IMG/VR virus record: IMGVR_UViG_3300009130_001466
Span: 48,802-112,801 of that record
Source of the DNA: a virus
Direction: 5' to 3' (one strand)
DNA: 64,000 nucleotides
Position 1 is the first letter of the stretch; each line of letters opens with the position of its first letter. The position numbers were made by a program, and so were the translations under genes. Shown here piece after piece: positions 32,951-46,025 of the stretch. The notes beneath the pieces were generated by a model. The model was not told where the DNA came from, ran no database searches, and saw only the letters and a program-made list of their open reading frames with translations.

Positions 32951-33022
32951 TGTAGGGAGGTTAGGTAGCCAACGGAGTCTCATAAGCTTCGTGAGCAGGT
33001 TCAATTCCTGCCCCTGCAACCA
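32951..33022 (+). tRNA. tRNA with CAT anticodon (Met or lysidine-Ile)
   Basis: Acceptor TGTAGGG/CCCTGCA, anticodon loop CTCATAA, T arm GCAGG-TTCAATT-CCTGC, encoded CCA end. Short D arm (72 bases). It lacks the GGG/CCC anticodon stem of initiators. Confidence 0.85.
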
Positions 33023-33027
33023 TTTAA

Positions 33028-33102
33028 GCCCCTATCGTCTAGCCAGGTCTAGGACACTTGGTTTTCATCCAAGCGACTGCGGTTCGAATCCGCATAGGGG
33101 TA
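33028..33102 (+). tRNA. tRNA-Glu (TTC)
   Basis: Acceptor GCCCCTA/TAGGGGT, anticodon stem CTTGG/CCAAG with loop TTTTCAT, T arm TGCGG-TTCGAAT-CCGCA. CCA not encoded. Confidence 0.9.
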
Positions 33103-33106
33103 CTTA

Positions 33107-33182
33107 GGTCGCATAGTTTTAATTGGCAAAACAGCTGATTTGTAATCAGCCTTTCTCGGTTCAAATCCGAGTGTGACCTCCA
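33107..33182 (+). tRNA. tRNA-Thr (TGT)
   Basis: Acceptor GGTCGCA/TGTGACC, anticodon stem GCTGA/TCAGC with loop TTTGTAA, T arm CTCGG/CCGAG, CCA encoded. Confidence 0.9.
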
Positions 33183-33189
33183 TTTTTAT

Positions 33190-33264
<75 letters not shown>

Positions 33265-33270
33265 TTTTAA

Positions 33271-33524
33271 CACACCCAGTGATCCTCTTCTTCATTGAAT
33301 GATCATAAAGGCTGGGTACATTTTACACAGGCGGTGTTGAAAGTAGAAACACTGCGTGGGCCAGCGTCCGAGGAAGGCGGAATATCGACTCGGTTAATTC
33401 TATGGCATTTTCGTGACCGTAACTGCAAAACGCGAAGCGCATAGAAGCATGGTGATCGATTGGTAATCGTAAGCCTAGTTCCACAAAGACCGTAATAGGA
33501 GTAACGACCTATCCTGTGTATTAA
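33271..33524 (+). ncRNA. Structured non-coding segment between tRNA-Asn and tRNA-Lys
   Basis: About 250 bases with no gene. Stems visible: CCCAGTGATC (33275-33284) with GATCA and CTGGG (33301-33305, 33312-33316); GTGTT/AACAC (33334-33352). Density of complementary blocks is like an RNA, not a spacer. It may be the 5' part of one large RNA that continues after the two intervening tRNAs. Confidence 0.45.
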
Positions 33525-33600
33525 GCACCTTTAGCTCAATCGGTAGAGCAGTTGACTTTTAATCAATTGGTTCTGGGTTCAAGTCCCAGAGGGTGTACCA
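33525..33600 (+). tRNA. tRNA-Lys (TTT)
   Basis: Acceptor GCACCTT/AGGGTGT, anticodon loop CTTTTAA, T arm CTGGG/CCCAG, CCA encoded. Confidence 0.92.
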
Positions 33601-33607
33601 ATTTTAT

Positions 33608-33684
33608 TGGTTCGTGGTGAAGTGGCCTAACACAACTGGTTTTGATCCAGTCATTCGCAGGTTCAAATCCTGCCGAACCTACCA
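33608..33684 (+). tRNA. tRNA-Gln (TTG)
   Basis: Acceptor GGTTCG/CGAACC with an unpaired first position as is usual for Gln, anticodon stem ACTGG/CCAGT with loop TTTTGAT, CCA encoded. Confidence 0.88.
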
Positions 33685-34272
33685 CCTTGACCCCTAATGC
33701 CTCTCATCTAAGTAGCCTTGATGATATGATGCACACTATAGGTAAAAAAAGCAGAGAACGTACCGCTCTGTCATAGGTCGTCAAATCGGTATCGTGAGGA
33801 GCAAACACGTTAACGTATCCAGCAGTGCAAGTGATGTAGGCTATTGCTCACTGCTGATCAATTTAATAGTTCTGATACTTTTCAAGAAGTATTGGGTAAT
33901 GATCCACCATTCCAAATAGGGGGAAACTAAAAAAGTAGTGTAGAACGTACTAGGATATGAGGCTTGTGGAATAGGCGTTGATTGAGCGGTATGCTGTTAG
34001 ATCGATCATTTGTCATACAAGGTAACTTCTCTACGTCATCTATTGGGTTAACTATTATCAAAGTAGACCTGCCATGCCTCTGAATGACGAAATTCGGACC
34101 TCAAGTGCCGTGAGAGTCGAAAGACTCCTATATCATTCAAGCATAATTTGGCGAAAAAGTATAAGAATCTGATCAAATCTTATATTGGTGTTTAGATTGA
34201 GTTTGTAATTTCTCTGCGACGGCGGGGGTTGATAATGAGGATAAGGACTGCGTAGCGGTCGACTCCCTCACA
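33685..34272 (+). ncRNA. Large structured RNA candidate in tRNA cluster (GOLLD/ROOL-like by context)
   Basis: Nearly 590 bases between tRNA-Gln and the next tRNA with no plausible ORF. Clear helices: CAGAG/CTCTG (33752-33770), CAGCAGTG/CACTGCTG (33820-33856), ATACTT/AAGTAT (33875-33892), GAGTC-GAAA-GACTC (34114-34127), TATAAGA/TCTTATA (34160-34184), GAGG/CCTC closing a GC-rich stem (34237-34269). GNRA-type and purine-rich loops are present. Phage GOLLD and ROOL RNAs are this size and lie beside tRNAs. Assignment to either is by context only; it could be a new class. Confidence 0.5.
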
Positions 34273-34278
34273 CTTTTA

Positions 34279-34355
34279 GGGCCTGTAGCTTAATTGGTGA
34301 AAGCAGCGAACTCATAATTCGTTGAGTCTCGGTTCAAGTCCGAGCGGGCCCACCA
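34279..34355 (+). tRNA. tRNA with CAT anticodon (second copy; resembles Ile2)
   Basis: Acceptor GGGCCTG/CGGGCCC, anticodon stem GCGAA/TTCGT with loop CTCATAA, T arm CTCGG/CCGAG, CCA encoded. Two CAT tRNAs in one array suggest one is elongator Met and the other the lysidine-modified Ile type. Confidence 0.88.
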
Positions 34356-34361
34356 TTTTAT

Positions 34362-34433
34362 GTCGCAGTGTTTAAGGTAAACAAGTGGTCTCCAAAACCG
34401 CCAAAGGGGATTCGATTTCTCCCTGCGGCGCCA
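34362..34433 (+). tRNA. tRNA-Trp (CCA)
   Basis: Acceptor GTCGCAG/CTGCGGC, anticodon stem GTGGT/ACCGC with loop CTCCAAA, T arm GGGGA/TCTCC, CCA encoded. Confidence 0.82.
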
Positions 34434-34441
34434 TTTTTAGC

Positions 34442-34469
34442 TTGACTTTTATTTTTGGGGCAATAGTAT
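34442..34469 (+). promoter_or_regulatory. Class I promoter
   Basis: TTGACT, 16 bases, TAGTAT, then eight bases to the ATG at 34478. Confidence 0.55.
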
Positions 34470-34477
34470 ACACACTC

Positions 34478-35017
34478 ATGGTAGAAGTTGAAGTTACAAA
34501 ATTCATGCTTGATGAAGCAAATCAAAGAAATAAAAAATTCTATGAAATGTTCGGACATACAGGCACTCACAGATCAAACAAACACAGACAAAGAATAACT
34601 GGTTATCTAGCCGAAGCAGCAATTAGCAACGCTTATGCAGATATAGTTTATGCGGAAGGTCATTCTGTTGATTTTGTTTTAAAAAACTCAGACACAATAG
34701 ATTCCAAAGCTCAAGGGTGCAATGGCAAACCAATGTCTAATTATAGTGCCACCTTATATGAAGAGCAAAAAAATAGAGCCACCGATTACTATATTTTCAG
34801 TAGAGTCAAGAACGATTTTAGCGTTGTTTGGATATGCGGCATTATATCCAAAAAAAAGTTTTTCAAAATAGCTGACTTAAAGAAAGCTGGAACCAAAACC
34901 AATAATTTCACTTATGATCAAAGTAGATATGAAATCGAATATAATCAATTAGCAGATATTGACACTTTTTTGAACTGGCACAAAAAAACAAACGCTCCGA
35001 TAGTTAAAGGGATATAA
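34478..35017 (+). CDS. PD-(D/E)XK-type nuclease inside the tRNA cluster
   Basis: 179 residues. The ATG at 34478 is chosen from the promoter geometry; a longer reading would run through tRNA-Trp. Core motif: E46 in GYLAEAAI, D65 in SVDFVL, D75-S-K77 in IDSKAQG, then a YEEQKNRATDYYIF region like restriction-type PD-(D/E)XK folds. The last 24 bases overlap the 5' end of tRNA-Arg, and the stop codon lies within the tRNA. A DNA endonuclease, perhaps selfish or acting against competing phages, is inferred. Confidence 0.6.
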   Translation: MVEVEVTKFMLDEANQRNKKFYEMFGHTGTHRSNKHRQRITGYLAEAAISNAYADIVYAEGHSVDFVLKNSDTIDSKAQGCNGKPMSNYSATLYEEQKNRATDYYIFSRVKNDFSVVWICGIISKKKFFKIADLKKAGTKTNNFTYDQSRYEIEYNQLADIDTFLNWHKKTNAPIVKGI

Positions 35018-35068
35018 CCGCTGATTTCTAATCTGCTATTCCAGGTTCGAATCCTGGTCGGAGTACCA
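34994..35068 (+). tRNA. tRNA-Arg (TCT)
   Basis: Acceptor GCTCCGA/TCGGAGT, anticodon loop TTTCTAA, one mismatch in the anticodon stem, T arm CCAGG/CCTGG, CCA encoded. Its 5' end overlaps the nuclease CDS. Confidence 0.85.
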
Positions 35069-36277: not shown

Positions 36278-36357
36278 CCCTAAGTCGCTGACAGTCAACG
36301 ACTTACGGGGCCGAGGCCGCCCCGCGCGCGTAAGTGCTTGATACTCAACGACTTACG
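36278..36357 (+). repeat. Composite palindrome R1
   Basis: Hairpin TAAGT-loop-ACTTA, then about 22 bases of pure G/C, then hairpin CGTAAGT-loop-ACTTACG. The left stem is extended by GCCCC/GGGGC. Confidence 0.85.
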
Positions 36358-36402
36358 ACACGAAAAAAACTTTAAAAAACTTAAAAAAACTTTGCGATAA
36401 GC

Positions 36403-36430
36403 TTGACTTGCCACTTCTTTAACCTATACT
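36403..36430 (+). promoter_or_regulatory. Class I promoter
   Basis: TTGACT, 16 bases, TATACT, six bases to the ATG at 36437, preceded by A/T-rich tracts that could act as an UP element. Confidence 0.7.
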
Positions 36431-36436
36431 GTAAGC

Positions 36437-36616
36437 ATGATTAAATATAACGAATTGCACGACCTCTCTTGCCAATACTGGGATGCTCTTGACCGCCAAG
36501 ATTATGACTGGGCTGACTTCATCGACTCATGCCTTGAGCGTGAAGGCGTGGAGCGTCTTCCTCGCGAAGATTGCGAAGAGCCCATCCTTGACCTTTCTCC
36601 TCTCGAAGTAAACTAA
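36437..36616 (+). CDS. Small acidic cassette protein
   Basis: 59 residues, very acidic (DLSCQYWDALDRQDYDWADF). Unknown. Followed five bases later by the next gene, so likely a two-gene unit. Confidence 0.6.
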   Translation: MIKYNELHDLSCQYWDALDRQDYDWADFIDSCLEREGVERLPREDCEEPILDLSPLEVN

Positions 36617-36620
36617 CCAA

Positions 36621-36956
36621 ATGACGATTATGACAAAAGCAATACTAGTAGACCCTTTTCTCCCCGCGATCTCAACTGTTGAGGTTGACGGGTTCGAAGA
36701 TATCCAACGCATGATCGATTGCCGCTGCTTTACTTGTGTGAGGTTTCCCGATGGCAAGCATGTCGCATACATTGACGACGAAGGATTAATCAATGGTACG
36801 CAAAGAGGCGTTAGGTTTATCGACAAGATTTACCCCGATGCCTTAGCTGGTCGCGTTCTTATCCTTGCCGACGACGGGCAAGGTGGCGACGCTGACTGCG
36901 AGCTGACAGGCGCTGATATCCAAGCGATGATAAAAGGAATCGTGGAATTCGGATAA
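36621..36956 (+). CDS. DUF3846-like protein
   Basis: 111 residues. The AYIDDEGLING core and the late VLILADDGQGGDAD segment resemble the DUF3846 family found in phages and plasmids; function unknown. Second gene of the unit starting at 36437. Another ATG three codons downstream is possible. Confidence 0.45.
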   Translation: MTIMTKAILVDPFLPAISTVEVDGFEDIQRMIDCRCFTCVRFPDGKHVAYIDDEGLINGTQRGVRFIDKIYPDALAGRVLILADDGQGGDADCELTGADIQAMIKGIVEFG

Positions 36957-36970
36957 AAAAGCTTGACACC

Positions 36971-37049
36971 CGTAAGTTGCTGATTATCAACGACTTACGG
37001 GCCCAGGGCCGCCCGCGCCGCGCAAGTGCTTGATAACCAAGGACTTGCG
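36971..37049 (+). repeat. Composite palindrome R2
   Basis: Left hairpin CCCGTAAGT/ACTTACGGG; G/C centre starting GGGCCC; right hairpin CGCAAGT/ACTTGCG, in which both stem arms changed together relative to other copies. Confidence 0.85.
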
Positions 37050-37086
37050 TAATCTAAAATAAAAAACAAAAAAGTTTCCAAAACGC

Positions 37087-37114
37087 TTGACAACCACACA
37101 AAATTTCCTATTCT
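37087..37114 (+). promoter_or_regulatory. Class I promoter
   Basis: TTGACA, 16 bases, TATTCT, eight bases to the ATG at 37123. Confidence 0.65.
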
Positions 37115-37122
37115 ATAAGATA

Positions 37123-37305
37123 ATGAAAGACACAAACAAATTAATCACCGAAGTAATCGACCACCTAACTTTTTCTAGCTATGCTCACAACCGCAAGCTA
37201 AATCCCGAAATCTCACCTTCTCGTTGGGGCAAGATCTACGGAGAAAAAGAAGTTGTTTTAATGGAAAAAACTTTCCAAAATACCTTGACAACCGCAAAAA
37301 AATAA
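37123..37305 (+). CDS. Small cassette protein, paralogue of 35419-35598
   Basis: 60 residues; shares VIDHLTxxSY and SRWGKIYGE with the 35419 gene. Its 3' end also carries the TTGACA of the following promoter, so the gene-plus-promoter unit was duplicated as a block. Confidence 0.65.
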   Translation: MKDTNKLITEVIDHLTFSSYAHNRKLNPEISPSRWGKIYGEKEVVLMEKTFQNTLTTAKK

Positions 37306-37312
37306 TCATACT
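37285..37312 (+). promoter_or_regulatory. Class I promoter overlapping a coding 3' end
   Basis: TTGACA, 16 bases, CATACT, seven bases to the ATG at 37320. Confidence 0.65.
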
Positions 37313-37319
37313 GTATAAC

Positions 37320-37478
37320 ATGAACATTAGAAAAGAAATTAAAGTCTCATCAATTCTAACCGACGAAGTATTGCGTCAACAAAAAGAGTTAATCTCTAAA
37401 GGCTTTCAGCACGTCAATAACATTAAAAATGGTCGTCTTTCGGATGGTTACACAATGATTTTTGTTAAACAAGGGTAA
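37320..37478 (+). CDS. Small cassette protein
   Basis: 52 residues (VSSILTDEVLRQQKELISKG ... YTMIFVKQG), basic/helical. Unknown. First of three closely spaced genes. Confidence 0.6.
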   Translation: MNIRKEIKVSSILTDEVLRQQKELISKGFQHVNNIKNGRLSDGYTMIFVKQG

Positions 37479-37482
37479 TAAT

Positions 37483-37632
37483 ATGAAAATTTGGGAACTT
37501 TTAACTCTGGTGCTTTTTGGACTCATTCTTGGGTTGGCAATGTTTGTCGGGCTTAAGCTCGACGACAAAGCTCAACAAACGAAAGAAGCGACATGGGAAC
37601 GCTTCGAGGAAATCGACAACGCAATCAAATAA
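37483..37632 (+). CDS. Small membrane protein
   Basis: 49 residues with one N-terminal transmembrane helix (LLTLVLFGLILGLAMFVGL) and a charged tail. Four bases after the previous gene. Confidence 0.5.
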   Translation: MKIWELLTLVLFGLILGLAMFVGLKLDDKAQQTKEATWERFEEIDNAIK

Positions 37633-37633
37633 A

Positions 37634-37771
37634 ATGAAAATAACTATTGACAAAACAACTGCAATTTGCTTGACAGTCGCGGCTTGCACTTACTTCATCG
37701 CAAATAAAATTAGCTGGTTTCAAAAAATGTTTGACACTGTCTCAGGGGTTGCGATAAACTCAATCATGTAA
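37634..37771 (+). CDS. Small membrane protein
   Basis: 45 residues, one hydrophobic segment (AICLTVAACTYFIAN). The stop codon is built into the left arm of palindrome R3. Confidence 0.45.
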   Translation: MKITIDKTTAICLTVAACTYFIANKISWFQKMFDTVSGVAINSIM

Positions 37772-37845
37772 GTGCTTGAATATCAACGACTTACGGGGCC
37801 AGGGCCGCCCGCGCCGCGCAAACCCTTGATAAACAACGACTTACG
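37768..37845 (+). repeat. Composite palindrome R3
   Basis: Two TAAGT/ACTTA-type hairpins around a G/C centre; the right copy has diverged on its 5' arm (CGCAAAC). Confidence 0.8.
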
Positions 37846-37869
37846 CAACTAAAAAAAAGAAAAAGACTC

Positions 37870-37897
37870 TTGACAACCGCACAAAAATAACCATCAT
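37870..37897 (+). promoter_or_regulatory. Class I promoter
   Basis: TTGACA, 16 bases, CATCAT, seven bases to the ATG at 37905. Confidence 0.6.
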
Positions 37898-37904
37898 ACA
37901 AACT

Positions 37905-38237
37905 ATGAAACCACTAAGCAAAACACTGACAGAACTAGGGATTGCATTTAGCTTTCCTATTGAGATTAAAGACGCTAATGGCAAGCCGACTTACCGAGAG
38001 TACAGCGATGGCTACTGGTATAAGTTTGAGTATGATGACAATAATAAAATAACTTACTGCAAGAATAGTCATAACTACTCGTATAGGTGTCAGTATGATG
38101 ACAATGGCAACAGGAATTACTTCGAGGACAGCAATGGTCTCCGAGAAGGTGCGCCACGTCCAGCCAAATCAACTAATACCTGCGAAGGCAAGGTTGTCGA
38201 AGTGGACGGGATCAAATATAAATTAACAGCACTATGA
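37905..38237 (+). CDS. YD-repeat-like small protein
   Basis: 110 residues with aromatic-acidic repeats YSDGYWYKFEYDDNN, YSYRCQYDDNGN and FEDSNG, similar in style to RHS/YD repeats in some phage and bacterial small proteins. C-terminal EVDGIKYKLTAL strand. Function unknown. It overlaps the next start by four bases. Confidence 0.5.
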   Translation: MKPLSKTLTELGIAFSFPIEIKDANGKPTYREYSDGYWYKFEYDDNNKITYCKNSHNYSYRCQYDDNGNRNYFEDSNGLREGAPRPAKSTNTCEGKVVEVDGIKYKLTAL

Positions 38238-38665
38238 AAAAATTAATCTTACTAACATTCGCCATCTGCGCATCAATAGCACAAGGCGCGACATTAACTG
38301 ATTTAATTGTTGCTTTAGAAAAAGTGGAAAGCAATTGCAATCCTTCCGCTTATAACGAAAGCGAAAAAGCGTTAGGCTCTCTTCAGATTAGACCTATCAT
38401 GTTGGCTGATTATAATCGCATCTATGGCACGAATATAAAGCACAAGCAAATGTCAAACCGCTTGACTTCCCATAATATCGCAATCGGAATCTTTCGTCAC
38501 TATGAAAAGTATATCAAACGTAATGGCGAAAAGTTAAATGCAAAACATCTTGCCTTCGTTTGGAATGGAGGAGGATCAGCTTGGAAACGGGTTGCAAATC
38601 CGAAAAGCGACAAAAAGCAAAAAAATCTAGAAATTTACTGGACAAAGGTCTCAAAGCATCTGTAA
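38234..38665 (+). CDS. Exported SLT-type lytic transglycosylase-like protein
   Basis: 143 residues. Signal peptide at 1-18 (MKKLILLTFAICASIAQG). ALEKVESNCNPSAYN with candidate catalytic Glu32, then ALGSLQI and LAFVWNGG match the lysozyme-like SLT fold. Probably cleaves peptidoglycan in the periplasm, aiding lysis or cell modification during infection. Coupled to the upstream gene by an ATGA overlap. Confidence 0.65.
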   Translation: MKKLILLTFAICASIAQGATLTDLIVALEKVESNCNPSAYNESEKALGSLQIRPIMLADYNRIYGTNIKHKQMSNRLTSHNIAIGIFRHYEKYIKRNGEKLNAKHLAFVWNGGGSAWKRVANPKSDKKQKNLEIYWTKVSKHL

Positions 38666-38689
38666 GTTACTGGTATTCAACGACTTACG
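38661..38689 (+). repeat. Single hairpin R4 of the composite family
   Basis: One TGTAAGT-loop-ACTTACG hairpin whose left arm contains the stop codon of the transglycosylase-like gene; no G/C centre. Confidence 0.75.
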
Positions 38690-38723
38690 CAACAAAAAAA
38701 CTTTAATCTTTTTTCAAAATCGC

Positions 38724-38751
38724 TTGACAGCCTAACCTTTTTTCTTATTCT
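38724..38751 (+). promoter_or_regulatory. Class I promoter with short leader
   Basis: TTGACA, 16 bases, TATTCT; the ATG at 38778 is 26 bases further, so this one is not leaderless. Confidence 0.55.
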
Positions 38752-38777
38752 TTTTTAAGCATTAACAACATCACTTT

Positions 38778-38972
38778 ATGATTGATAAACGAACAGAAAA
38801 ACAAATCAAGAGGCTCTTCTCGGTGGTAGTAGACGACTCACTCATGGACGCTGACTTTGAATATGTCCAAGCAGCTATTGCTTGCGTTCGTAAAGAGTGT
38901 GATCAAGTTGAAGAATACATGAAGGAGATGGATAGACTTGCTGATGAAGATTCTATATCTAACACAATATGA
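38778..38972 (+). CDS. Small acidic cassette protein
   Basis: 64 residues, helical (TEKQIKRLFSVVVDDSLM). Unknown. The stop overlaps the next ATG (ATGA). Confidence 0.55.
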   Translation: MIDKRTEKQIKRLFSVVVDDSLMDADFEYVQAAIACVRKECDQVEEYMKEMDRLADEDSISNTI

Positions 38973-39061
38973 GACAATTCACCAACGGCGACACGGGCGA
39001 GGTCAAGACTATAGCTGAGGTCTTTGCCCTAATCCGCGAAGAGAGAGAAGGAGAGCCGTAA
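38969..39061 (+). CDS. Very small protein
   Basis: 30 residues (MRQFTNGDTGEVKTIAEVFA...), overlapping the upstream stop. Its stop codon lies in the left hairpin of R5, as for other cassettes, which supports it being real. Confidence 0.4.
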   Translation: MRQFTNGDTGEVKTIAEVFALIREEREGEP

Positions 39062-39135
39062 GTCTCTGACAGTCAACGACTTACGGGCCCAGGGCCGCGC
39101 CCGCCGCGCAAGTGCTTGATATACAACGACTTACG
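39058..39135 (+). repeat. Composite palindrome R5
   Basis: Left hairpin CCGTAAGT/ACTTACGG, G/C centre, right hairpin CGCAAGT/ACTTACG (one mismatch). Confidence 0.8.
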
Positions 39136-39169
39136 CAACAAAAAAACTTTAATCTTTTTTCAAAATCGC

Positions 39170-39197
39170 TTGACAACCTCACCAAAATTCTTATTGT
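39170..39197 (+). promoter_or_regulatory. Class I promoter
   Basis: TTGACA, 16 bases, TATTGT, seven bases to the ATG at 39205. Confidence 0.65.
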
Positions 39198-39204
39198 TTT
39201 AATT

Positions 39205-39387
39205 ATGACTACTACTGATTCCTTCTCTGATTCTTCTTTTGACCCTTGGGCTGACTTGTCCGAGGCCGAGTTCGCTGAGTTCGAAGCCGATATGTTGCGC
39301 GAGCAACAGGAGCGTGAAAGCGCCGAGGCGATGGCTCACGAAGCTCAGCTTGAGCGCGAGCTTATGGAAAGAGCCGACTTCCGCTAA
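39205..39387 (+). CDS. Very acidic small protein
   Basis: 60 residues. The ATG at 39205 is placed by the promoter, rejecting a longer start inside palindrome R5. Glu/Asp/Ala-rich (WADLSEAEFAEFEADML). It could be a DNA mimic or a protein-binding inhibitor, but nothing specific is visible. Confidence 0.6.
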   Translation: MTTTDSFSDSSFDPWADLSEAEFAEFEADMLREQQERESAEAMAHEAQLERELMERADFR

Positions 39388-39393
39388 GGGGTT

Positions 39394-39472
39394 GCGCAAG
39401 CCCTTGACAGTCAACGACTTACGGGGCCGAGGCCGCCCCGCGCGCGTAAGTCCTTGATACTCAGCAACTTAC
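39394..39472 (+). repeat. Composite palindrome R6
   Basis: Two hairpins around GGGGCCGAGGCCGCCCC-type centre, seven bases after the preceding stop. Confidence 0.8.
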
Positions 39473-39476
39473 AGAG

Positions 39477-39500
39477 GTTCCCGAAATTCATTTCGGGAAC
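39477..39500 (+). terminator. Perfect hairpin, possible terminator
   Basis: GTTCCCGAAA/TTTCGGGAAC with a 4-base loop, directly after R6. No T tract, so termination is uncertain. Confidence 0.5.
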
Positions 39501-39601
39501 ATACATAACTGCTTGATCATTAGATATATACGCTATTTGTCTTGTATTTGCGTTCGATTTGCGTTCGATTTGATTTGGCGCTATTTTTTTTCAAAAAAGG
39601 G

Positions 39602-39629
39602 TTGACTAATGCCCAAAACAATACATAAT
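39602..39629 (+). promoter_or_regulatory. Class I promoter of the structured RNA
   Basis: TTGACT, 16 bases, CATAAT. No ATG follows; predicted start near 39636. Confidence 0.6.
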
Positions 39630-39635
39630 GTAAAA

Positions 39636-40060
39636 CATAATCGTTCTTTAACATTTTACAATTTAGACAAGCGAGTCCTAGAAGCTGGTAGATGAAATTG
39701 CTTTAGTAGGCTACCAAGGTTAAGCAAATCGTTTGTCTCTTATCTAACTCGAAGAAAGCCAGGTAAACAGCCGAGCATGGGGATCTGCTGGCAATGCGTC
39801 GAGGACAGCGTGGGGGTGCGTTGATAAGATTGATTAGTTAAACACCCTCAAGATTTAACCTCGCTTGGATGACGTCTGCCTTAGAAGGGCATCCCCAAGC
39901 CAACTGGATTCGCAAATAGCGAAGAGGGAGTTGCCACTGCTCTGAGGTTTTAACATTTTAAGCGGAGAATTTGAACGCTCGACCTAAACGCCTAAAGGGT
40001 TCACCCAAGCGGAAATGAGTCGAAAGACCGAGAGCGCCAACCAATTGAAACAGGTTATAT
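39636..40060 (+). ncRNA. Large structured non-coding RNA candidate
   Basis: About 425 bases with a strong promoter and no ORF. Helices: AGACAAGCGA/TCGTTTGTCT (39665-39674 with 39729-39738) enclosing an H-type pseudoknot formed by GGTAG/CTACC (39687, 39711) interleaved with TTGCTT/AAGCAA (39698, 39722); CTTATC/GATAAG (39739, 39823); GGGGAT/ATCCCC (39779, 39891); TTCGC/GCGAA (39909-39923). It is not tmRNA (no CCA-ended tRNA-like domain) and has no RNase P signature. Identity unknown. The end is not marked by a clear terminator. Confidence 0.55.
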
Positions 40061-40082
40061 CCGCACCAATCTAAAAAAACTA

Positions 40083-40111
40083 TTGACAAAGCTCAACTTT
40101 TGTGATTTAAT
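40083..40111 (+). promoter_or_regulatory. Class I-like promoter with leader
   Basis: TTGACA, 17 bases, TTTAAT (TATAAT also overlaps at longer spacing). The gene has a leader of about 35 bases. Confidence 0.45.
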
Positions 40112-40153
40112 ATAATCTTAACAATCGAAAATCCAAAACGGAGAAAAGAAAAC

Positions 40154-40405
40154 ATGAAAAACCTAAAACTAAATCCAATCCAAAAAACTCGCCTTGCTAT
40201 TCGTCGCGCTTTCGCTAAGAATAATATGGCTCAAATCACCTACAAGAAAAAGTCTGATGAGACTGTTGGCTCTTATGTCATTGACATGAATTTCATTGAA
40301 GACTTGGGCGATATGTTCAACACCTATTCTTACGCCACTGGCGCGAAGCACAGCGGCATCCGCTCCTTCTATAAAAACCGAATCGAAAAAATTAAACTTG
40401 TGTAG
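40154..40405 (+). CDS. Small basic protein with true ribosome binding site
   Basis: 83 residues, basic (RLAIRRAFAKNN; YKNRIEKIKL) with a QITYKKKSDETVGSYVIDM strand pair resembling WYL/SH3-like ligand modules. Unlike neighbours it has an ordinary leader and GGAGAA site. Followed by two terminators. Unknown function. Confidence 0.6.
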   Translation: MKNLKLNPIQKTRLAIRRAFAKNNMAQITYKKKSDETVGSYVIDMNFIEDLGDMFNTYSYATGAKHSGIRSFYKNRIEKIKLV

Positions 40406-40428
40406 CGTGATTGGTTAACGTGTGTGTG

Positions 40429-40468
40429 CCGCCTCGTCTTGTGGTTAGGGCGAGGCGGCTTAAATTTC
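40429..40468 (+). terminator. Intrinsic terminator, first of twin pair
   Basis: GCCGCCTCG/CGAGGCGGC stem-loop with T-rich tail, preceded by AACGTGTGTGTGCCG. Confidence 0.75.
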
Positions 40469-40498
40469 TTTTGTTGTAGTCGTGTGCAACGTGTGTGT

Positions 40499-40536
40499 GC
40501 CGTCTTACCTTTTGTGTATGGGGTAAGGCGGCTTTT
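40499..40536 (+). terminator. Intrinsic terminator, second of twin pair
   Basis: GCCGTCTTACC/GGTAAGGCGGC stem-loop followed by TTTT, preceded by the same AACGTGTGTGTGCCG as the first. Confidence 0.75.
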
Positions 40537-40567
40537 CGCTATATGGATCAAGAGTTCTGTAAGTCCT

Positions 40568-40646
40568 TGATGGTCAACGATTTACGCGGCGGGGGCCAGC
40601 GCAGACCCGCAAGTGCTTGATAATCAACAACTTACGAATTCAAATA
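40568..40646 (+). repeat. Composite palindrome R7
   Basis: Two TAAGT-type hairpins around a G/C centre (GGCGGGGGCCAGCGC), following the twin terminators. Confidence 0.8.
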
Positions 40647-40671
40647 AATTTAAATAAATTTTTAAAAAGGG

Positions 40672-40700
40672 TTGACTCGTCGAATTAAATAATACATTAT
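40672..40700 (+). promoter_or_regulatory. Class I promoter
   Basis: TTGACT, 17 bases, CATTAT, six bases to the ATG at 40707. Confidence 0.6.
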
Positions 40701-40706
40701 ACTAAT

Positions 40707-40997
40707 ATGAAAATGACAAAAACAACTACAGAAAACCTCACCCTTGAAAACTCATTCGGAACAATCCGCGAAGAAAATGGAGTCCAGATGAATATATCCG
40801 TGCATGTCCAGCCAAACAAAAATTATGGTTCGTTTGAAATGTATGACGAAGAAACTGGAGGTGAAGAATGGTATGCCGAAGGAGGTCTTTGGTTTGAGGG
40901 CAAGGAACTGGTTGACTACGATGGAGTTTTTGCTCTATCTCCGTCAATTATTCAAATCTTAGAAGACAAAGGTTATGATGCTTCTTATGCAAAGTAA
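40707..40997 (+). CDS. Cassette protein
   Basis: 96 residues, acidic, beta-rich (MNISVHVQPNKNYGSFEMYDE; GGLWFEGKELVDYDG). Unknown family. Leaderless start predicted. Confidence 0.6.
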   Translation: MKMTKTTTENLTLENSFGTIREENGVQMNISVHVQPNKNYGSFEMYDEETGGEEWYAEGGLWFEGKELVDYDGVFALSPSIIQILEDKGYDASYAK

Positions 40998-41000
40998 TAC

Positions 41001-41029
41001 TTGACTAATCACAAAAAATAATACATCAT
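41001..41029 (+). promoter_or_regulatory. Class I promoter
   Basis: TTGACT beginning just after the previous stop, 17 bases, CATCAT, six bases to the ATG at 41036. Confidence 0.6.
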
Positions 41030-41035
41030 ATCAAC

Positions 41036-41377
41036 ATGAAGAAAATAACCTTATCACTACACCGCAGCGAAGATGAACCTTTTGTTCAGAAATGGGAGGT
41101 CGCTCGCAAATGTGTTTTTGCTGTTCGGCTGAACGTAGAGCATATCGAATATCCACATATTCCGTCAAAGCTTGCTGAGCTTTTGTTTCACGTTACTAAC
41201 GCGCCGACCGAGCTTATCACTAAAACACACGAAAAAATTCTTTTGGCTCTGTGGGAAAACTGCTCGGACAAGAGAACCTTTCACTCTACAAGTGTCGGAG
41301 ATGTCGTTAAGATCTGTGATTGTAACGGACACCCAACAACTTTAATGTGCAAATCAGTTGGATGGGAGGAGCTATAA
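41036..41377 (+). CDS. Cassette protein
   Basis: 113 residues, Cys/His-containing helical protein (KWEVARKCVFAVRLNVEHI; CSDKRTFHSTSVGDVVKIC). Unknown. First of a three-gene unit; its end overlaps the next start. Confidence 0.6.
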   Translation: MKKITLSLHRSEDEPFVQKWEVARKCVFAVRLNVEHIEYPHIPSKLAELLFHVTNAPTELITKTHEKILLALWENCSDKRTFHSTSVGDVVKICDCNGHPTTLMCKSVGWEEL

Positions 41378-41556
41378 TGACAATCGATCAAATAAATTCA
41401 TACTGCTACGAACATTACGAAGACGGCGGCGATATTGTAGTAGAGTGCATGGAAGATGAAGAGAAGCTCAAACGTTTTGAAACTTTGGAAGACCTCAGAC
41501 AATACATTGAGATACGCCAAGAGCATCGCCGAGAAATTGAATCAACCATTTGGTAA
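41377..41556 (+). CDS. Small acidic protein
   Basis: 59 residues from the ATG at 41377, which overlaps the previous stop and follows GGGAGGAG. Acidic helices (EDGGDIVVECMEDEEKLKRF). Unknown. Confidence 0.6.
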   Translation: MTIDQINSYCYEHYEDGGDIVVECMEDEEKLKRFETLEDLRQYIEIRQEHRREIESTIW

Positions 41557-41557
41557 T

Positions 41558-41905
41558 ATGAAAGTAAGAGTATACAGAAACCTGCACAAAAAATGTTTTT
41601 CGGTTCAAGAGAAGACAGAAAAAGGCTGGCGAGTCAAACGCCACGCCACTTCTATCGTGCTTAAAAACGCCTCGTTTCGTGTTTCTGAAGCTGGACGCAA
41701 AAGAGTGTTAAAAGAAAAAAGAAAAAATGTTCACGCTTTTATAGAGGGCTATGAAATAAAAAACAGCACACAAAAACACAAGTGCGAAGTTTGTGTTAGC
41801 TACAATCCTTACAAGTGTGACCACTTTGAAACTAACTCCCACGATCCAGTTTTTTTTGCTCGACTCGCTCATGTTAATCTCTCAGGGTGCAAAATCCATA
41901 AGTAG
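41558..41905 (+). CDS. Conserved-looking phage protein with Cys/His cluster
   Basis: 115 residues from the ATG at 41558. Begins VRVYRNLHKKCFSVQ and contains SFRVSEAGRKRVL-KKNVHAFIEGY, a pattern seen in small phage proteins of unknown role; then CEVC-x8-CDHFE, a possible metal site. Third gene of the unit starting at 41036. Confidence 0.6.
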   Translation: MKVRVYRNLHKKCFSVQEKTEKGWRVKRHATSIVLKNASFRVSEAGRKRVLKEKRKNVHAFIEGYEIKNSTQKHKCEVCVSYNPYKCDHFETNSHDPVFFARLAHVNLSGCKIHK

Positions 41906-41975
41906 TTGATATTCAACGACTTACGCGGCCGCGGCCGCCCCCGCGTCGTAAGTCCTTGATATTCAACGACTTACG
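41897..41975 (+). repeat. Composite palindrome R8
   Basis: Left hairpin overlaps the preceding stop region; centre CGGCCGCGGCCG is a perfect palindrome; right hairpin CGTAAGT/ACTTACG. Confidence 0.85.
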
Positions 41976-42051
41976 CAACTTTGACTGCTCTGGGGCTCAA
42001 GTTCCGTGCCAACTTTTTTTCTAATTATTTTTTTATTTTTTTGGTAAACGC

Positions 42052-42080
42052 TTGACACCACATTGATTTTCTCATATGAT
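42052..42080 (+). promoter_or_regulatory. Class I promoter with leader
   Basis: TTGACA, 17 bases, TATGAT; about 43 bases of AU-rich leader before the ATG at 42124. Confidence 0.55.
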
Positions 42081-42123
42081 GTAATCTCACAATTAAATAA
42101 TAATACTATATAAAGTTAATACT

Positions 42124-42924
42124 ATGAACATCGAAAATACACACCCTGCAAATCAAGAACTCCTTCGCCTTAACGTGTGCGAATCAAAACAGTGCGACTT
42201 CTCTAAGGTTCAAGCTGTCTCTACTCCCGACGCTTCTGATCGTTGGACTCCTATCGCTCACGATGCTTTGGTTGGTCAATTCCGCGAGTCTATCGGCAAC
42301 ACTGATCTTGAGATCGTGAATGAGCATCACGCGTTGCACCGCTATGGTCAACGCTACTTTGGCTTGTTCCAAGTCAAGGGCGTAGGTCGCAAGCATGGCG
42401 ATGACGTTGGCACTGTTATGTGTCTTCGCAATTCTCACGATAAGGCTTTCCGCGCTGGCATCTCTGCTGGTGATGCGCCTTTCGTTTGCTCCAACTTGAT
42501 CTTCTCTAACGAGATCGTGCTTGGTCGCCGCCATACTACTCACATCATGCGCGACTTACCGCAAATCATTTCACGTGCGATTGGTCAACTTATGGAGTCT
42601 TGGATTACTACGGACAACCGCATTGACTCCTACAAGTCAACCGAGATTGATGATCGTGTGGCTCACGACTTAATCCTGCGCGGCTTTCAAGCTGGCGCGT
42701 GTGGCAAGACGCAAATTGCTGACATCTTCACACAGTGGCACAAGCCCGAACATGAGAACTTTGAGGGTCGCGACCTTTGGAGTCTTCAAAACGCCTTCAC
42801 GAACGTGTGGAGGGGCAACACGCTCAACACGGCGAACCGCTCAAGCTCGCTCTACTCCGTGCTTGACACCTTCGCGGCTCACGCCAAACCAGTTGAGGGC
42901 GAATTAGTTCTCAACGCTTCCTAA
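42124..42924 (+). CDS. DUF932-like protein
   Basis: 266 residues. LRNSHDKAFRAGISAGDAPF with CSNLIFSNE is the core of DUF932/phage-plasmid-like proteins; function unknown. It is less AT-rich than its neighbours, suggesting high expression, and is the largest cassette gene. It has its own promoter with leader and a good terminator. Confidence 0.6.
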   Translation: MNIENTHPANQELLRLNVCESKQCDFSKVQAVSTPDASDRWTPIAHDALVGQFRESIGNTDLEIVNEHHALHRYGQRYFGLFQVKGVGRKHGDDVGTVMCLRNSHDKAFRAGISAGDAPFVCSNLIFSNEIVLGRRHTTHIMRDLPQIISRAIGQLMESWITTDNRIDSYKSTEIDDRVAHDLILRGFQAGACGKTQIADIFTQWHKPEHENFEGRDLWSLQNAFTNVWRGNTLNTANRSSSLYSVLDTFAAHAKPVEGELVLNAS

Positions 42925-42932
42925 CGGCTCTC

Positions 42933-42960
42933 GCCTCACCCTTCGGGGTGGGGCTTTTCT
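42933..42960 (+). terminator. Intrinsic terminator
   Basis: GCCTCACCC-TTC-GGGGTGGGGC stem-loop followed by TTTTCTTTTT, just after the DUF932-like gene. Confidence 0.85.
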
Positions 42961-42976
42961 TTTTCTGCTTGACATT

Positions 42977-43055
42977 CGTAAGTGCTTGATAATCAACGAC
43001 TTACGCGGCCGCGGCCGCCCCCGCGTCGCAAGTCCTTGGTATTCAACGACTTACG
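42977..43055 (+). repeat. Composite palindrome R9
   Basis: Near-identical to R8: CGTAAGT hairpins around CGGCCGCGGCCGCCCCCGCG. It follows an independent intrinsic terminator. Confidence 0.85.
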
Positions 43056-43145
43056 CAACTTCTTTCACGCGCTGGTCGCTGAGCTTGTCAAGTCTTTTCT
43101 TTAGGTTTTTTTTGAAAAGTTTTTTTAATTTATTTTAAATATCGC

Positions 43146-43174
43146 TTGACTTGCGCGACAAATTCTCAGATAAT
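43146..43174 (+). promoter_or_regulatory. Class I promoter
   Basis: TTGACT, 17 bases, GATAAT, six bases to the ATG at 43181. Confidence 0.65.
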
Positions 43175-43180
43175 GCTTTT

Positions 43181-43888
43181 ATGACTAAACTACTAAACAA
43201 CGGAAACTCGAAAACAATCAAAGGCGAAAAACTTGGATGGACTACTTTTGGTCTACACCTTGCGCCTTTTAACTTGGCTGGCAAAAATGTTTGCGCCCAT
43301 GCTTCGGCTGGATGCGCTGCTGCTTGTCTCAACACTGCTGGACGCGGCGCGATGTCGAATGTGCAAAAATCTCGCATTGCAAAAACACAAAAATTCTTTG
43401 CCGATAAAAATGCTTTCGTATGGCAACTTGCTAAAGAGATTAGCAACGCTGTTAAACTTTCCGCAAAAAAAGACATGAAGCCATGCTTTCGTCTCAATCT
43501 TACAAGCGATCTGCCTTGGGAAAACATAAAAGTTGAATCGCACGGAAAAAAGCTTTCGCTTATGGAGATGTATCCCGATGTGCAGTTTTACGATTATACC
43601 AAGTCTTTTCCGCGTATGCAAAAATATCTAAAAGGTGAAATGCCAAGCAACTATCATCTTACCTTTTCGCGTAGTGAATGTAATGACAACTTAGTTGACT
43701 TGGTTCTCAAGCTTGGCGGAAATGTCGCGGCAGTCTTTCGCAATGAGTTTCCTAAGTCTTGGAAGTCTGTGGAAGTTGTCAACGGTGACGAAACAGACTT
43801 GCGTTTTTTAGATGCGCAAAATAAAATTGTTGGACTTGTGCAAAAAGGACTTGCCAAGAAGGACGAAACAGGCTTTGTTATAGGCTAG
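43181..43888 (+). CDS. GP88-family-like protein
   Basis: 235 residues from the ATG at 43181 (leaderless geometry). Begins LLNNGNSKT and continues FNLAGKNVCAHASAGCAAACL, then LNLTSDLPWENI, VQFYDYTKS, matching the phage gene-product-88 family, which carries a conserved Cys cluster and an N-terminal NGNSK. Function unknown. Followed by small overlapping genes. Confidence 0.6.
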   Translation: MTKLLNNGNSKTIKGEKLGWTTFGLHLAPFNLAGKNVCAHASAGCAAACLNTAGRGAMSNVQKSRIAKTQKFFADKNAFVWQLAKEISNAVKLSAKKDMKPCFRLNLTSDLPWENIKVESHGKKLSLMEMYPDVQFYDYTKSFPRMQKYLKGEMPSNYHLTFSRSECNDNLVDLVLKLGGNVAAVFRNEFPKSWKSVEVVNGDETDLRFLDAQNKIVGLVQKGLAKKDETGFVIG

Positions 43889-43891
43889 TAA

Positions 43892-43954
43892 ATGATAATA
43901 ATTCTAACCCTCTTAATCTTCTTAATGATAACACTCAACCATGAATCCTACTGA
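43892..43954 (+). CDS. Possible 20-residue membrane peptide
   Basis: MIIILTLLIFLMITLN then HESY; entirely hydrophobic, starts four bases after the GP88-like stop and overlaps the next start. Could be chance. Confidence 0.25.
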   Translation: MIIILTLLIFLMITLNHESY

Positions 43955-44147
43955 ACGATATAATCTAATCAAAAAAATCTGTGAAAGCAAAAATCAAATC
44001 AACTCGCACGGGCAACTGCCCACGACCGAAACCGACTTGCAAGACGAATTCTTACGCTTCCAAACTAGCGTCGAACCTCTTGCAACTAAACAAGACTCAA
44101 GGCTATGGCAAAAAAGTTTCTTCCAAAACTTAGTCTTCGGCAGTTAG
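43941..44147 (+). CDS. Small cassette protein
   Basis: 68 residues, mixed charge (NPTERYNLIKKICESKNQI). Unknown. Last 43 bases overlap the next gene in another frame. Confidence 0.45.
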   Translation: MNPTERYNLIKKICESKNQINSHGQLPTTETDLQDEFLRFQTSVEPLATKQDSRLWQKSFFQNLVFGS

Positions 44148-44248
44148 AAAAAACCGTTAGGAAAGGGTTAGGCTTAATGCCTTCCCGCCCCTTTCGCGAC
44201 CGCTCGAAATACAACCGCAAAAACAAACACAAAAAAACGTTAGACTAA
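44105..44248 (+). CDS. Small very basic protein
   Basis: 47 residues, about one third Lys/Arg (KKFLPKLSLRQLEKTVRKG; RDRSKYNRKNKHKK). Possibly nucleic-acid or ribosome binding. It overlaps the previous gene, which lowers certainty. Confidence 0.45.
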   Translation: MAKKFLPKLSLRQLEKTVRKGLGLMPSRPFRDRSKYNRKNKHKKTLD

Positions 44249-44249
44249 A

Positions 44250-44426
44250 ATGAACTACAGTAAAAAATTCGGCTTCTATAATCCTAAAACTAAAATTGCT
44301 CAAGTGTATGACGGCTCCAAGCGCACTCCAACTAATACCGTTGTAAATGGTAAGGTTGGCTTTAGCATACCAAAAATTTTTGTCGGTAAATGCTCGCGAG
44401 CGCAGTTTGATAAACTGATCTCATAA
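44250..44426 (+). CDS. Small basic protein
   Basis: 58 residues (KKFGFYNPKTKIAQVYDGS ... GKCSRAQFDKLIS). Two bases after the preceding gene; stop lies in the first hairpin of R10. Confidence 0.5.
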   Translation: MNYSKKFGFYNPKTKIAQVYDGSKRTPTNTVVNGKVGFSIPKIFVGKCSRAQFDKLIS

Positions 44427-44544
44427 GCGCTTGAGCTTCAACGACTTAGGGATCGGCTAGAATTCCCTAAGTCGCTGGTAGTCAACGACTTACGCGGCGG
44501 GGGCCGCCCCCGCGTCGTAAGTGCTTGATATAGAACGACTTACG
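44421..44544 (+). repeat. Composite palindrome R10 with an extra hairpin
   Basis: Three TAAGT/ACTTA hairpins in tandem, the last two flanking GGCGGGGGCCGCCCCCGCG. Longest member of the family. Confidence 0.85.
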
Positions 44545-44590
44545 CAACTTGCTCGCAGGAGACAGAGCGGGCTTTTTTTAAAAATAATAG

Positions 44591-44618
44591 TTGACAGAAC
44601 CATTTTTTTCGTTAGACT
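44591..44618 (+). promoter_or_regulatory. Class I promoter
   Basis: TTGACA, 16 bases, TAGACT, six bases to the ATG at 44625. Confidence 0.65.
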
Positions 44619-44624
44619 GTAGTC

Positions 44625-44819
44625 ATGATAATCAAAAAAGATGACCTCCTCCGCCCCACTCGCAACCACGCTCGCACCGTCAAGGTAATGTTTACCTACT
44701 CTTGTGGGAAACTCGCCATGATCTACTGCCCTACTGTTGGGCGTGGCGATGTCAGGCACATCGACCTCTACGAAGGTTGGGCTATCGAGCGTGACGGGAA
44801 TCACGTCGGGACTGTGTAA
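44625..44819 (+). CDS. Small cassette protein
   Basis: 64 residues, beta-rich (ARTVKVMFTYSCGKLAMIYC). Unknown; its stop is inside palindrome R11. Last gene of the plus-strand array. Confidence 0.6.
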   Translation: MIIKKDDLLRPTRNHARTVKVMFTYSCGKLAMIYCPTVGRGDVRHIDLYEGWAIERDGNHVGTV

Positions 44820-44892
44820 GTCCTTGCTAGCCAACGACTTGTGGGGCGGGGGCCGCCCGCGACGCGCAACTCCTTGATATACAACAACTTAC
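44815..44892 (+). repeat. Composite palindrome R11
   Basis: Two hairpins with G/C centre (GGGGCGGGGGCCGCCCGCG); end of the array. Confidence 0.8.
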
Positions 44893-44925
44893 AAAACTTC
44901 AGTCTCAATATAGTCTCATTTAATT

Positions 44926-45092: not shown

Positions 45093-46025
45093 CTACATAT
45101 CTTTTAATATGTTTACACCTTTGCCGCTTATCTCACGCTGACCATTGATCTTCATTAGACCACGCTTGAGAAGATAGAGTTCTGCTTCTTTCTGGATTGC
45201 TGTGCGACTCATACCTGTAACGGCTGAGAGCATCTGAAGTGAGCAGTTGCCACGCTCCTTGAGGATGCTGAGAATCTCAAGCTCAATGTTGGACAACCCA
45301 AGAGGCTTGATACCCAAGGTGTGAGACATCTTCTCCCAATCCTTTTTGGAATAGTCCTTGTTATTCACAGACTCGCAGTAGAGCATGATCTCTTTGGAAC
45401 GCTTGACTGCTGAACGAGCGTTGCCCCTTGTAGTCTCAGCAATCTCTGTGAGAATCCCATCCTCAAACTCAATCTCGCCACAAACCAAATCAATAATTTC
45501 AGATAGCTCGTCAACTGTATAAGGCTTGAAGTCTACGATAGTGAGGCGATCCTTGAAGGGAGCAAACAACTTATCCATCTCAGTAGTAGCGAAGATGAAA
45601 TTTTGTTGGGCAAAATCAAAAGCAAAAATCTGTTCGCCATGATGATACTCTTTGAAGTTGCTCTTCTCTGTGTTGAATACAGTAAGGAAGGCGTTAACCA
45701 AATCCTTGGGAAGCATGTGCGCCTCGTCCAATAGGATGGTAATCTCGTTGTGCATCACAATGGGCAAGAAGATTTGCTCAAAGAAAGCATTAGCATTTTT
45801 AATAGTGGAGCAGTTGATCTCAAGGAATGGACGTTGACTGCCATCCTTGTTCTTGAGATTGGAAGCATACTCCTTAGCGAACTCAGTCTTACCCAAGCCC
45901 TTTGCCCCACTCAACATAAGAAATGGTGCGACTCCAGTAGAATTTTGTGCTTTAGCGTAAAAGGAAAGCTGACGCTTTACCTCGTCTTGACCGATTAGGT
46001 TTTTGAACATAGTTTTAGTAATCAT
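45093..46025 (-). CDS. RuvB-like AAA+ ATPase
   Basis: 310 residues. IGQDEVKRQL start, Walker A SGAKGLGKTE (39-48), Walker B ITILLDEAH (95-103), sensor-1 FIFATTE, arginine-containing GNARSAVKRS sensor-2 region, and C-terminal winged helix (GLSNIELEILSILKERG; TAIQKEAELYLLKRGLM). This is the layout of RuvB, the Holliday junction branch-migration motor; RuvA and RuvC were not seen. A clamp-loader-like role is an alternative. Class I promoter nine bases upstream. Confidence 0.75.
   Translation of the reverse strand: MITKTMFKNLIGQDEVKRQLSFYAKAQNSTGVAPFLMLSGAKGLGKTEFAKEYASNLKNKDGSQRPFLEINCSTIKNANAFFEQIFLPIVMHNEITILLDEAHMLPKDLVNAFLTVFNTEKSNFKEYHHGEQIFAFDFAQQNFIFATTEMDKLFAPFKDRLTIVDFKPYTVDELSEIIDLVCGEIEFEDGILTEIAETTRGNARSAVKRSKEIMLYCESVNNKDYSKKDWEKMSHTLGIKPLGLSNIELEILSILKERGNCSLQMLSAVTGMSRTAIQKEAELYLLKRGLMKINGQREISGKGVNILKDM

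Follow-up and report, generated by a model that had tools for sequence, protein, structure and literature searches.

The locus raises the question of whether a repeated, hairpin-like sequence lying between small phage genes acts as an RNA structure at gene ends or as a site in the DNA itself. The window, the 64,000-nucleotide stretch of the IMG/VR virus record IMGVR_UViG_3300009130_001466 that we analysed, holds an array of elements and genes spanning 8.6 kb, in which elements and lone palindromes lie between the genes. The ten full elements and the single lone palindrome reported in the first-pass annotation were confirmed, the ten full elements forming an ungapped alignment of 79 columns. 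Each full copy in the window consists of a 29-bp palindrome (H1), a 21-bp G/C spacer, and a second 29-bp palindrome (H2), as in R1 (36279–36357), and the layout recurs in R2 (36971–37049), R3 (37767–37845), R5 (39057–39135), R6 (39395–39473), R7 (40558–40636), R8 (41897–41975), R9 (42977–43055), R10 (44466–44544), and R11 (44815–44893), with which the array ends. The lone palindrome R4 (38661–38689) probably reflects the collapse of a full element across its two direct-repeat halves, because the orthologous junction in the relative L270 holds a full element (4917–4995). An extra lone palindrome (44422–44450) lies 15 bp upstream of R10 and makes a three-palindrome array there. We also observed a degenerate lone palindrome at 39504, after R6.

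The 29-bp palindrome has the consensus CGTAASTCGTTGA-N3-TCAACGASTTACG, so that each palindrome carries two inverted half-sites. The inner arms, which occur in variants such as ACTTGCG and ACTTACG, are more conserved than the outer arms, and the central three bases, the least conserved part of the palindromes, differ even among the copies of one genome. Across the lineage, the double palindrome measures 70–87 bp, with palindromes of constant length and a quantised spacing, the G/C-rich spacer being mostly 13, 19 or 21 bp long. The G/C centre had been described as self-complementary, which it is only weakly beyond what its composition gives.

We trained a position-weight model on the window palindromes and used reversed sequence as the control. 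The model identified about 870 palindromes in related loci; at the training threshold, reversed sequence gave none, and the pattern is therefore far beyond chance. The element occurs in related phages: more than 100 IMG/VR contigs carry elements, and an unbiased sample of loci around a shared gene contained at least one element in 67 of 80 cases, with none in reversed sequence. In the large records that we profiled, the elements are confined to one GC-richer, small-gene array of 5.5–15 kb per genome, with 9–30 palindromes per genome, at gene junctions of that one region. The element was not found in the approximately 50,700 isolate phage records searched, and the four regions scanned in the nearest isolates by GP88 protein gave just isolated weak matches. 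The element is a trait of a whole uncultured phage lineage, found in none of the searched isolates. A cellular origin was considered and rejected, as six of the seven genome matches had neither paired elements nor a nearby tRNA. The seventh match is a short contig with six elements in a Flavobacteriaceae MAG, which we take to be phage DNA. A CRISPR mimic, suggested by the repeat spacing, was set aside because the copies diverge too much and show no RNA signatures.

The appearance of the element invites a reading as RNA hairpins working as terminators, RNase III sites or 3'-end protectors, and protection of 3' ends had been proposed initially. Hairpin-forming sequence does lie at gene ends: 220 of 544 oriented elements (about 40%) are less than 25 bp from the upstream stop, and about half of the convergent junctions (63/120) carry an element. 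However, the H1 and H2 stems of the lineage elements are 72% paired against 70–71% expected, without compensatory covariation, and the strongest column couplings are all between adjacent bases. Among the ten window copies, pairing (80.4%) equals that of shuffles (80.2 ± 0.4%), as does the covariation score; the claim that both arms of a stem in R2 had changed together holds for one pair (columns 53/77), but the ten copies as a set behave as shuffles. In 543 gene-oriented elements, G·T and A·C mismatches each stand at 0.98–0.99 of independent expectation, with the same result whether the element is close to a stop or distant from it. In contrast, terminator-like hairpins taken from these loci as the positive control show 157 G·T against 52 A·C (3:1). 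A long nested hairpin pairing H1L with H2R and H1R with H2L, which RNA folding favours for several copies, was also ruled out, since the outer arms have no excess pairing and one inner pair shows anti-pairing. An Rfam search of the element returned no matching family.

The placement of terminators points in the same direction. The elements contain no T tract, as the first-pass annotation had stated, and R9 indeed follows a separate intrinsic terminator of the DUF932 gene (42933–42964, plus strand; GCCTCACCC-TTC-GGGGTGGGGC followed by a T tract). Among elements lying 25–350 bp from the stop, 52% have an upstream terminator, compared with 6% in shuffled sequence and 5% downstream, and a terminator precedes the element at 39 of 44 orthologous DUF932–GP88 junctions. 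The early doubt about simple termination is therefore upheld by the missing T tract and the separate upstream terminators. With neither covariation nor a G·T preference in the stems, and with separate terminators upstream, the element is neither a terminator nor a 3'-end protector at the RNA level; RNase III sites were rejected on the same covariation and mismatch tests with their positive control, and the RNA reading as a whole is highly improbable. By these tests, all made on sequence, the element evolves like a DNA-level recognition site and unlike the RNA hairpin it resembles.

Gene context was counted with a purpose-made hexamer-based gene caller, an ORF-based count having been discarded because it included shadow ORFs. 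The elements avoid genes, with 13 intragenic clusters among about 1,000, and only 5% of them come closer than 45 bp to a downstream start, against 31% expected. The left arms had been said often to include the preceding stop codon; arms near or into the stop are found in the roughly 40% of elements noted above. A leaderless sigma70-type promoter often lies downstream of the element, for example at 36400–36439 on the plus strand (TTGACT ... TATACT, with the ATG 6 nt past the -10 box). The proposed association of elements with a promoter and a small gene stands insofar as such promoters were found in the window, but promoter-like sequences follow elements (38%) no more often than they occur in element-free gaps (40%). 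The element-to-promoter distance is variable, from 4 to 90 bp and more.

Could the elements instead be recombination sites that let cassettes be cut out, inserted and reordered, either through a host Xer-type or other recombinase or as homology patches for the phage RecA, as proposed for PeSLs? Cassettes have moved among relatives: W11 (44545–44814) has an 89% identical counterpart, measured from one element to the next, at another place in L270, and in L275 and L191 the DUF932 and GP88 cassettes stand in exchanged positions. When L275 is compared with L270, the ends of an inserted cassette fall inside elements, each element half tends to be shared together with the flank that is homologous, and the phage encodes a RecA-family protein and a RuvB-like ATPase; a search of the records for RuvC gave nothing. 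Against this, elements show only a modest surplus of one-sided homology (39%, with flanks at least 90% identical) over element-free junctions (18–32%). Phage_integrase (PF00589) was absent from 34 element-bearing records and present in 14 of 14 control genomes, though a host enzyme might take its place, and neither Resolvase nor Y1_Tnp (PF01797) was detected in 31 element-bearing records. The palindrome centre, where an exchange of strands would require identity, is the least conserved part and varies within one genome. The two conserved cassettes of the array, the DUF932 gene (42124–42924, plus strand; Pfam PF06067; in 8 of 10 genomes) and the GP88 gene (43181–43888, plus strand; PF17338, phrog_1617), flank R9, a junction at which an element is retained throughout the lineage. 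They form the commonest pair, whose order is kept in 70 of 74 loci and whose relative orientation is never inverted (74/74), and a palindrome is retained between them in 72 of 74. A solved-structure search for these two proteins yielded nothing useful. The dedicated shuffling role suggested earlier is weakly supported: there are clear cases of moved cassettes, but the breakpoint enrichment is modest, recombinases of the three families were not found in the records searched and the commonest pair keeps a stable order. We regard a recombination site as unlikely.

The covariation that we detected is weak, symmetric and centred exactly on the dyad of the whole element, with dyad-centred pairing of 0.61 versus 0.43 for 13-bp spacers and 0.50 versus 0.46 for 21-bp spacers. 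This weak signal, the coupling of the inner arms and the deep predicted folds might fit a cruciform or other DNA-structure element, in which the inner arms and the G/C spacer extrude a hairpin for replication, packaging or junction-processing enzymes. However, covariation is absent from the palindromes, which are the best conserved part, self-complementarity is almost nil in 19-bp spacers, and the many palindromes at the junctions of a single region would be odd for an origin or a packaging site, making this reading improbable. A functionless selfish or MITE-like repeat spreading within phage genomes could account for spacers being more alike within than between loci (0.85 versus 0.57 for 13-bp spacers, 0.69 versus 0.53 for 21-bp spacers) and for palindrome numbers that vary by whole units. 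Such a repeat is nevertheless the least probable of the readings, given the restriction to a single region, the exclusion from genes, the retention of elements at orthologous junctions over large divergence, and the lack of a clean empty site with target duplication among the cases shown.

The explanation that we find best, with belief evenly divided for and against it, is a composite DNA site of dyad symmetry to which a protein probably binds, and which might mark early transcription units or serve as their operator or insulator. Because two palindromes with inverted half-sites stand at a preferred spacing, the element as a whole has dyad symmetry, and a protein acting as a dimer or tetramer, encoded by either phage or host, might bind it. 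Like an operator, the element is an intergenic duplex site conserved column by column. The symmetry carried by columns and not by compensated pairs, the constant palindrome length and quantised spacing, the better conserved inner arms, the weak dyad-centred covariation, the avoidance of genes and of starts, the upstream terminators, the single array per genome and the palindrome retained between DUF932 and GP88 all speak for this reading. The element lies past the 3' end of one presumably early gene, often past its terminator, and before the leaderless sigma70-type promoter of the next gene, where it would most likely separate and coordinate neighbouring early transcription units. As repeated homology, the element might also permit cassette exchange via the phage's own RecA-type recombination, shuffling being a by-product. 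Some observations speak against an operator or insulator: convergent genes, where no promoter is expected, flank some elements, promoter-like sequences are just as frequent in element-free gaps, and an operator pair alone leaves the G/C-only spacer unaccounted for. The variable distance to the promoter would fit a boundary better than a classical operator.

Known systems share parts of this arrangement. Promoter-early stem-loop (PeSL) cassettes were reportedly described in T4-like phages by Arbiol et al. in 2010 and Comeau et al. in 2014 (cited here via PMC4503421). The PeSL-like layout recognised in the first-pass annotation was borne out as gene, element, host-type promoter and gene. The likeness extends to small genes that have early promoters of the host type, to junctions marked by a recurring palindromic element, and to density in a variable region and modules rearranged among relatives. 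The PeSL stem-loop is described as a terminator, whereas here two palindromes are paired around a G/C spacer, T tract and RNA-structure signature are missing, and a separate terminator often lies upstream. The stoperators of Cluster A mycobacteriophages are short asymmetric sites, distributed genome-wide and bound by a monomeric repressor (PMC9283540); they resemble the element as many copies of a duplex-recognised DNA site in short intergenic gaps, binding being presumed here, but our elements are paired palindromes in a single array. In the Xer/pdif modules of Acinetobacter plasmids (PMC13141974), 28–29-bp inverted-arm sites likewise flank small modules of variable order, although here the sites are paired, the centre is variable, conserved cassettes show no relative inversion, and the exchange region differs among copies of one genome. 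Integron attC arrays also consist of small genes, each ending in a long imperfect palindrome; in contrast, no tyrosine recombinase was found here, the cassettes carry their own promoters, and the covariation expected of a folded attC site is absent. The element sequence is presumably unrelated to the usual REP foot. REP/BIME sequences with RAYT (PMC8266576) are repeated intergenic palindromes in composite units as well, but the records here hold no Y1 transposase and the elements are not genome-wide.

With doubt slightly outweighing belief, we suggest from the sequence comparisons that the element might represent a novel class of DNA boundary element with a putative dedicated duplex-binding protein, by which the early region of a family-level lineage would be split into insulated, exchangeable leaderless gene units. 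Hairpin-looking intergenic phage repeats need a mismatch and covariation test before they are called terminators. The concrete question posed by the element is which protein reads the site. Because it delimits the region of accessory small genes in a large uncultured lineage, the element offers a handle for locating that region, and possible host-takeover genes, in metagenomes.

Within the source IMG/VR virus record of 112,801 bases, of which the window covers bases 48802-112801, the array at window positions 36279-44893 holds ten 79-bp elements that align without gaps. Each consists of a 29-bp palindrome (H1), 21 bp of almost exclusively G/C and a second 29-bp palindrome (H2); the array also has lone palindromes, at 38661 and 44422. 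We trained a position-weight model of the palindrome on the window and refined it with relatives; it matched about 870 palindromes in the window and the first 108 fetched related loci, and none in the reversed sequence of this set at the training threshold. The majority are paired, with spacers of 13, 19 and 21 bp accounting for 82, 68 and 178 of 392 pairs, and clusters of three to five palindromes also occur. In a subgroup including loci L159 and L126, 29-bp spacers carry a clear central palindrome (GACCCC-TAC-GGGGTC), and palindromes stand two, three or more in a row, with whole units gained or lost.

Selection on a stem at the RNA level would be expected to produce compensated changes and to tolerate G·U where A·C is not tolerated. 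The element stems displayed neither compensation nor a preference for G·U over A·C. Watson-Crick pairing in the H1 and H2 stems reached 72%, against 70-71% from column composition alone, and a dedicated pair count on the window copies gave the same outcome (80.4 versus 80.2 ± 0.4 expected). Across 543 elements given the orientation of their gene strand, mismatches of the G·T and A·C types both stood at 0.98-0.99 of expectation, a parity also found in elements that immediately follow a stop codon. By contrast, 201 terminator-like hairpins taken from these loci contained 157 G·T and 52 A·C mismatches. The uncompensated stems and this parity contradict an RNA stem selected as such. The strongest couplings link neighbouring bases, as in protein-DNA recognition; a weak covariation is symmetric about the midpoint of the complete element, and conservation is higher in the inner half-sites than in the outer. 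On these sequence patterns, we read the element as a composite dyad-symmetric DNA site; a possible alternative is a cruciform in which the inner arms and spacer take part.

Nine fully profiled records each carry a single element array of 5.5-15 kb, with a few stray matches elsewhere at most; in a tenth (G010), the palindromes lie between positions 84 and 99 kb. Arrays are GC-richer than the remaining genome (for example, 0.39 versus 0.29 and 0.47 versus 0.34), and their genes are smaller than those elsewhere in the record. Elements are intergenic: among about 1,000 clusters, overlap with a called gene is limited to 13, of which 11 are single palindromes. The elements also avoid the final 45 bp ahead of the next start codon (5% observed versus 31% expected). 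Where an element lies 25-350 bp away from the stop codon, an intrinsic terminator intervenes between the two in 52% of cases (6% when shuffled) and lies downstream in only 5%; at the orthologous junction between the conserved DUF932 (42124-42924, plus strand) and GP88 (43181-43888, plus strand) genes, it lies upstream of the element in 39/44. Junctions thus run from one gene, often through a terminator, to the element, a promoter and the next gene. Many of these downstream promoters place the -10 hexamer 6-8 bp ahead of the start codon, which implies leaderless transcripts. Array genes have a TTGAC-type -35 and a TATNNT-like -10 ending about 5-9 nt before the ATG, a gap too short for a ribosome-binding site, so that those at 36059, 36437, 37123, 37905, 39205, 41036 and 43181, and others in relatives' arrays, look leaderless. 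Because the promoters are of host type, we infer that array genes are early. Two sigma-factor-like proteins, with regions 2 and 4 recognised by eye (27477-28148, minus strand; L283:2686-3144 in a related locus), belong to families present in 10/10 and 8/10 genomes, which suggests phage-encoded sigma factors.

An eight-tRNA gene cluster (32951-35068) immediately precedes the array; tRNA clusters also occur in relatives, not always next to the array. Between R6, one of the full elements, and the gene at 40154, about 400 nt (39655-40070) contain no evident gene, match no Rfam family and fold unremarkably (z 0.19); a 140-base part is 98% identical in L265, in a contig stretch without paired elements.

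Cassette rearrangement, with which the first-pass annotation had tentatively connected the element, is real. The cassette at 44545-44814 has different neighbours in L270; L275 and L191 carry DUF932 and GP88 in swapped positions; and comparing L275 with L270 reveals an inserted cassette, both of whose boundaries fall within elements. R4, a single palindrome, seems to have arisen from a full element by collapse between the two direct-repeat halves. Where flanks are at least 90% identical, one-sided homology occurred at 39% of elements versus 18% of wide and 32% of tight element-free junctions, the pairs being non-independent. We found no Phage_integrase in 34 records, no Resolvase or Y1_Tnp in 31 and no RuvC in 23. 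Cassette exchange thus occurs, probably via general recombination. A RuvB-like AAA+ ATPase with a RuvB_C winged-helix domain (45093-46025, minus strand; labelled clamp loader by PHROGs) directly adjoins the array, and PF05491 occurs in 17 of 23 element-bearing records, mostly away from it. Among 74 loci, the orientation of DUF932 and GP88 is the same in all, their order is kept in 70 and a palindrome lies between them in 72; persistence of the element at a single junction despite large divergence points to a local function.

In viral contigs, two scans for the pattern yielded 101 and 91 stretches. When loci were sampled through the array protein GP88, to avoid choosing by the element itself, 67/80 had at least one element pair and the reversed controls had none. 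Isolate phages gave no convincing DNA match, and scanning the regions of four isolates among those closest in GP88 gave isolated weak matches only. Among seven genome-collection matches, full elements were confined to a 4.7-kb contig of a Flavobacteriaceae MAG (L116). This contig, which has six, is probably a phage contig binned together with its host and might be a lead to the host. The ten large records, about nine independent genomes because G005 and G007 are near relatives with the same array, have terminase, capsid-region and replication genes in common, so that the carriers form a single lineage, with a terminase only remotely related to those of isolates. L271, L272 and L276, with a 72% identical DUF932 protein and no palindromes in the available stretch, are useful for asking what stands in place of the element.

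Judged by titles and abstracts, the open-licence literature on palindromic intergenic phage repeats does not describe the element. The promoter-early stem-loop (PeSL) cassettes of T4-like phages, treated in a citing paper (PMC4503421), have the most similar layout, but the terminator feature that defines them is, as judged from sequence, absent from the element. Stoperators (PMC9283540) are likewise dispersed phage sites recognised in duplex, whereas the element consists of paired palindromes. The data directly support a repeat family, its position and its DNA-like evolution, and the DNA-level part of the mechanism is very probably correct. A dimer or tetramer would bind the site, and this putative binder would in turn act on the transcription units. 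The best-supported reading of the whole, for and against which we find the balance about even, is that the element might be an operator- or insulator-like site which, when bound, separates the early transcription units of these phages.
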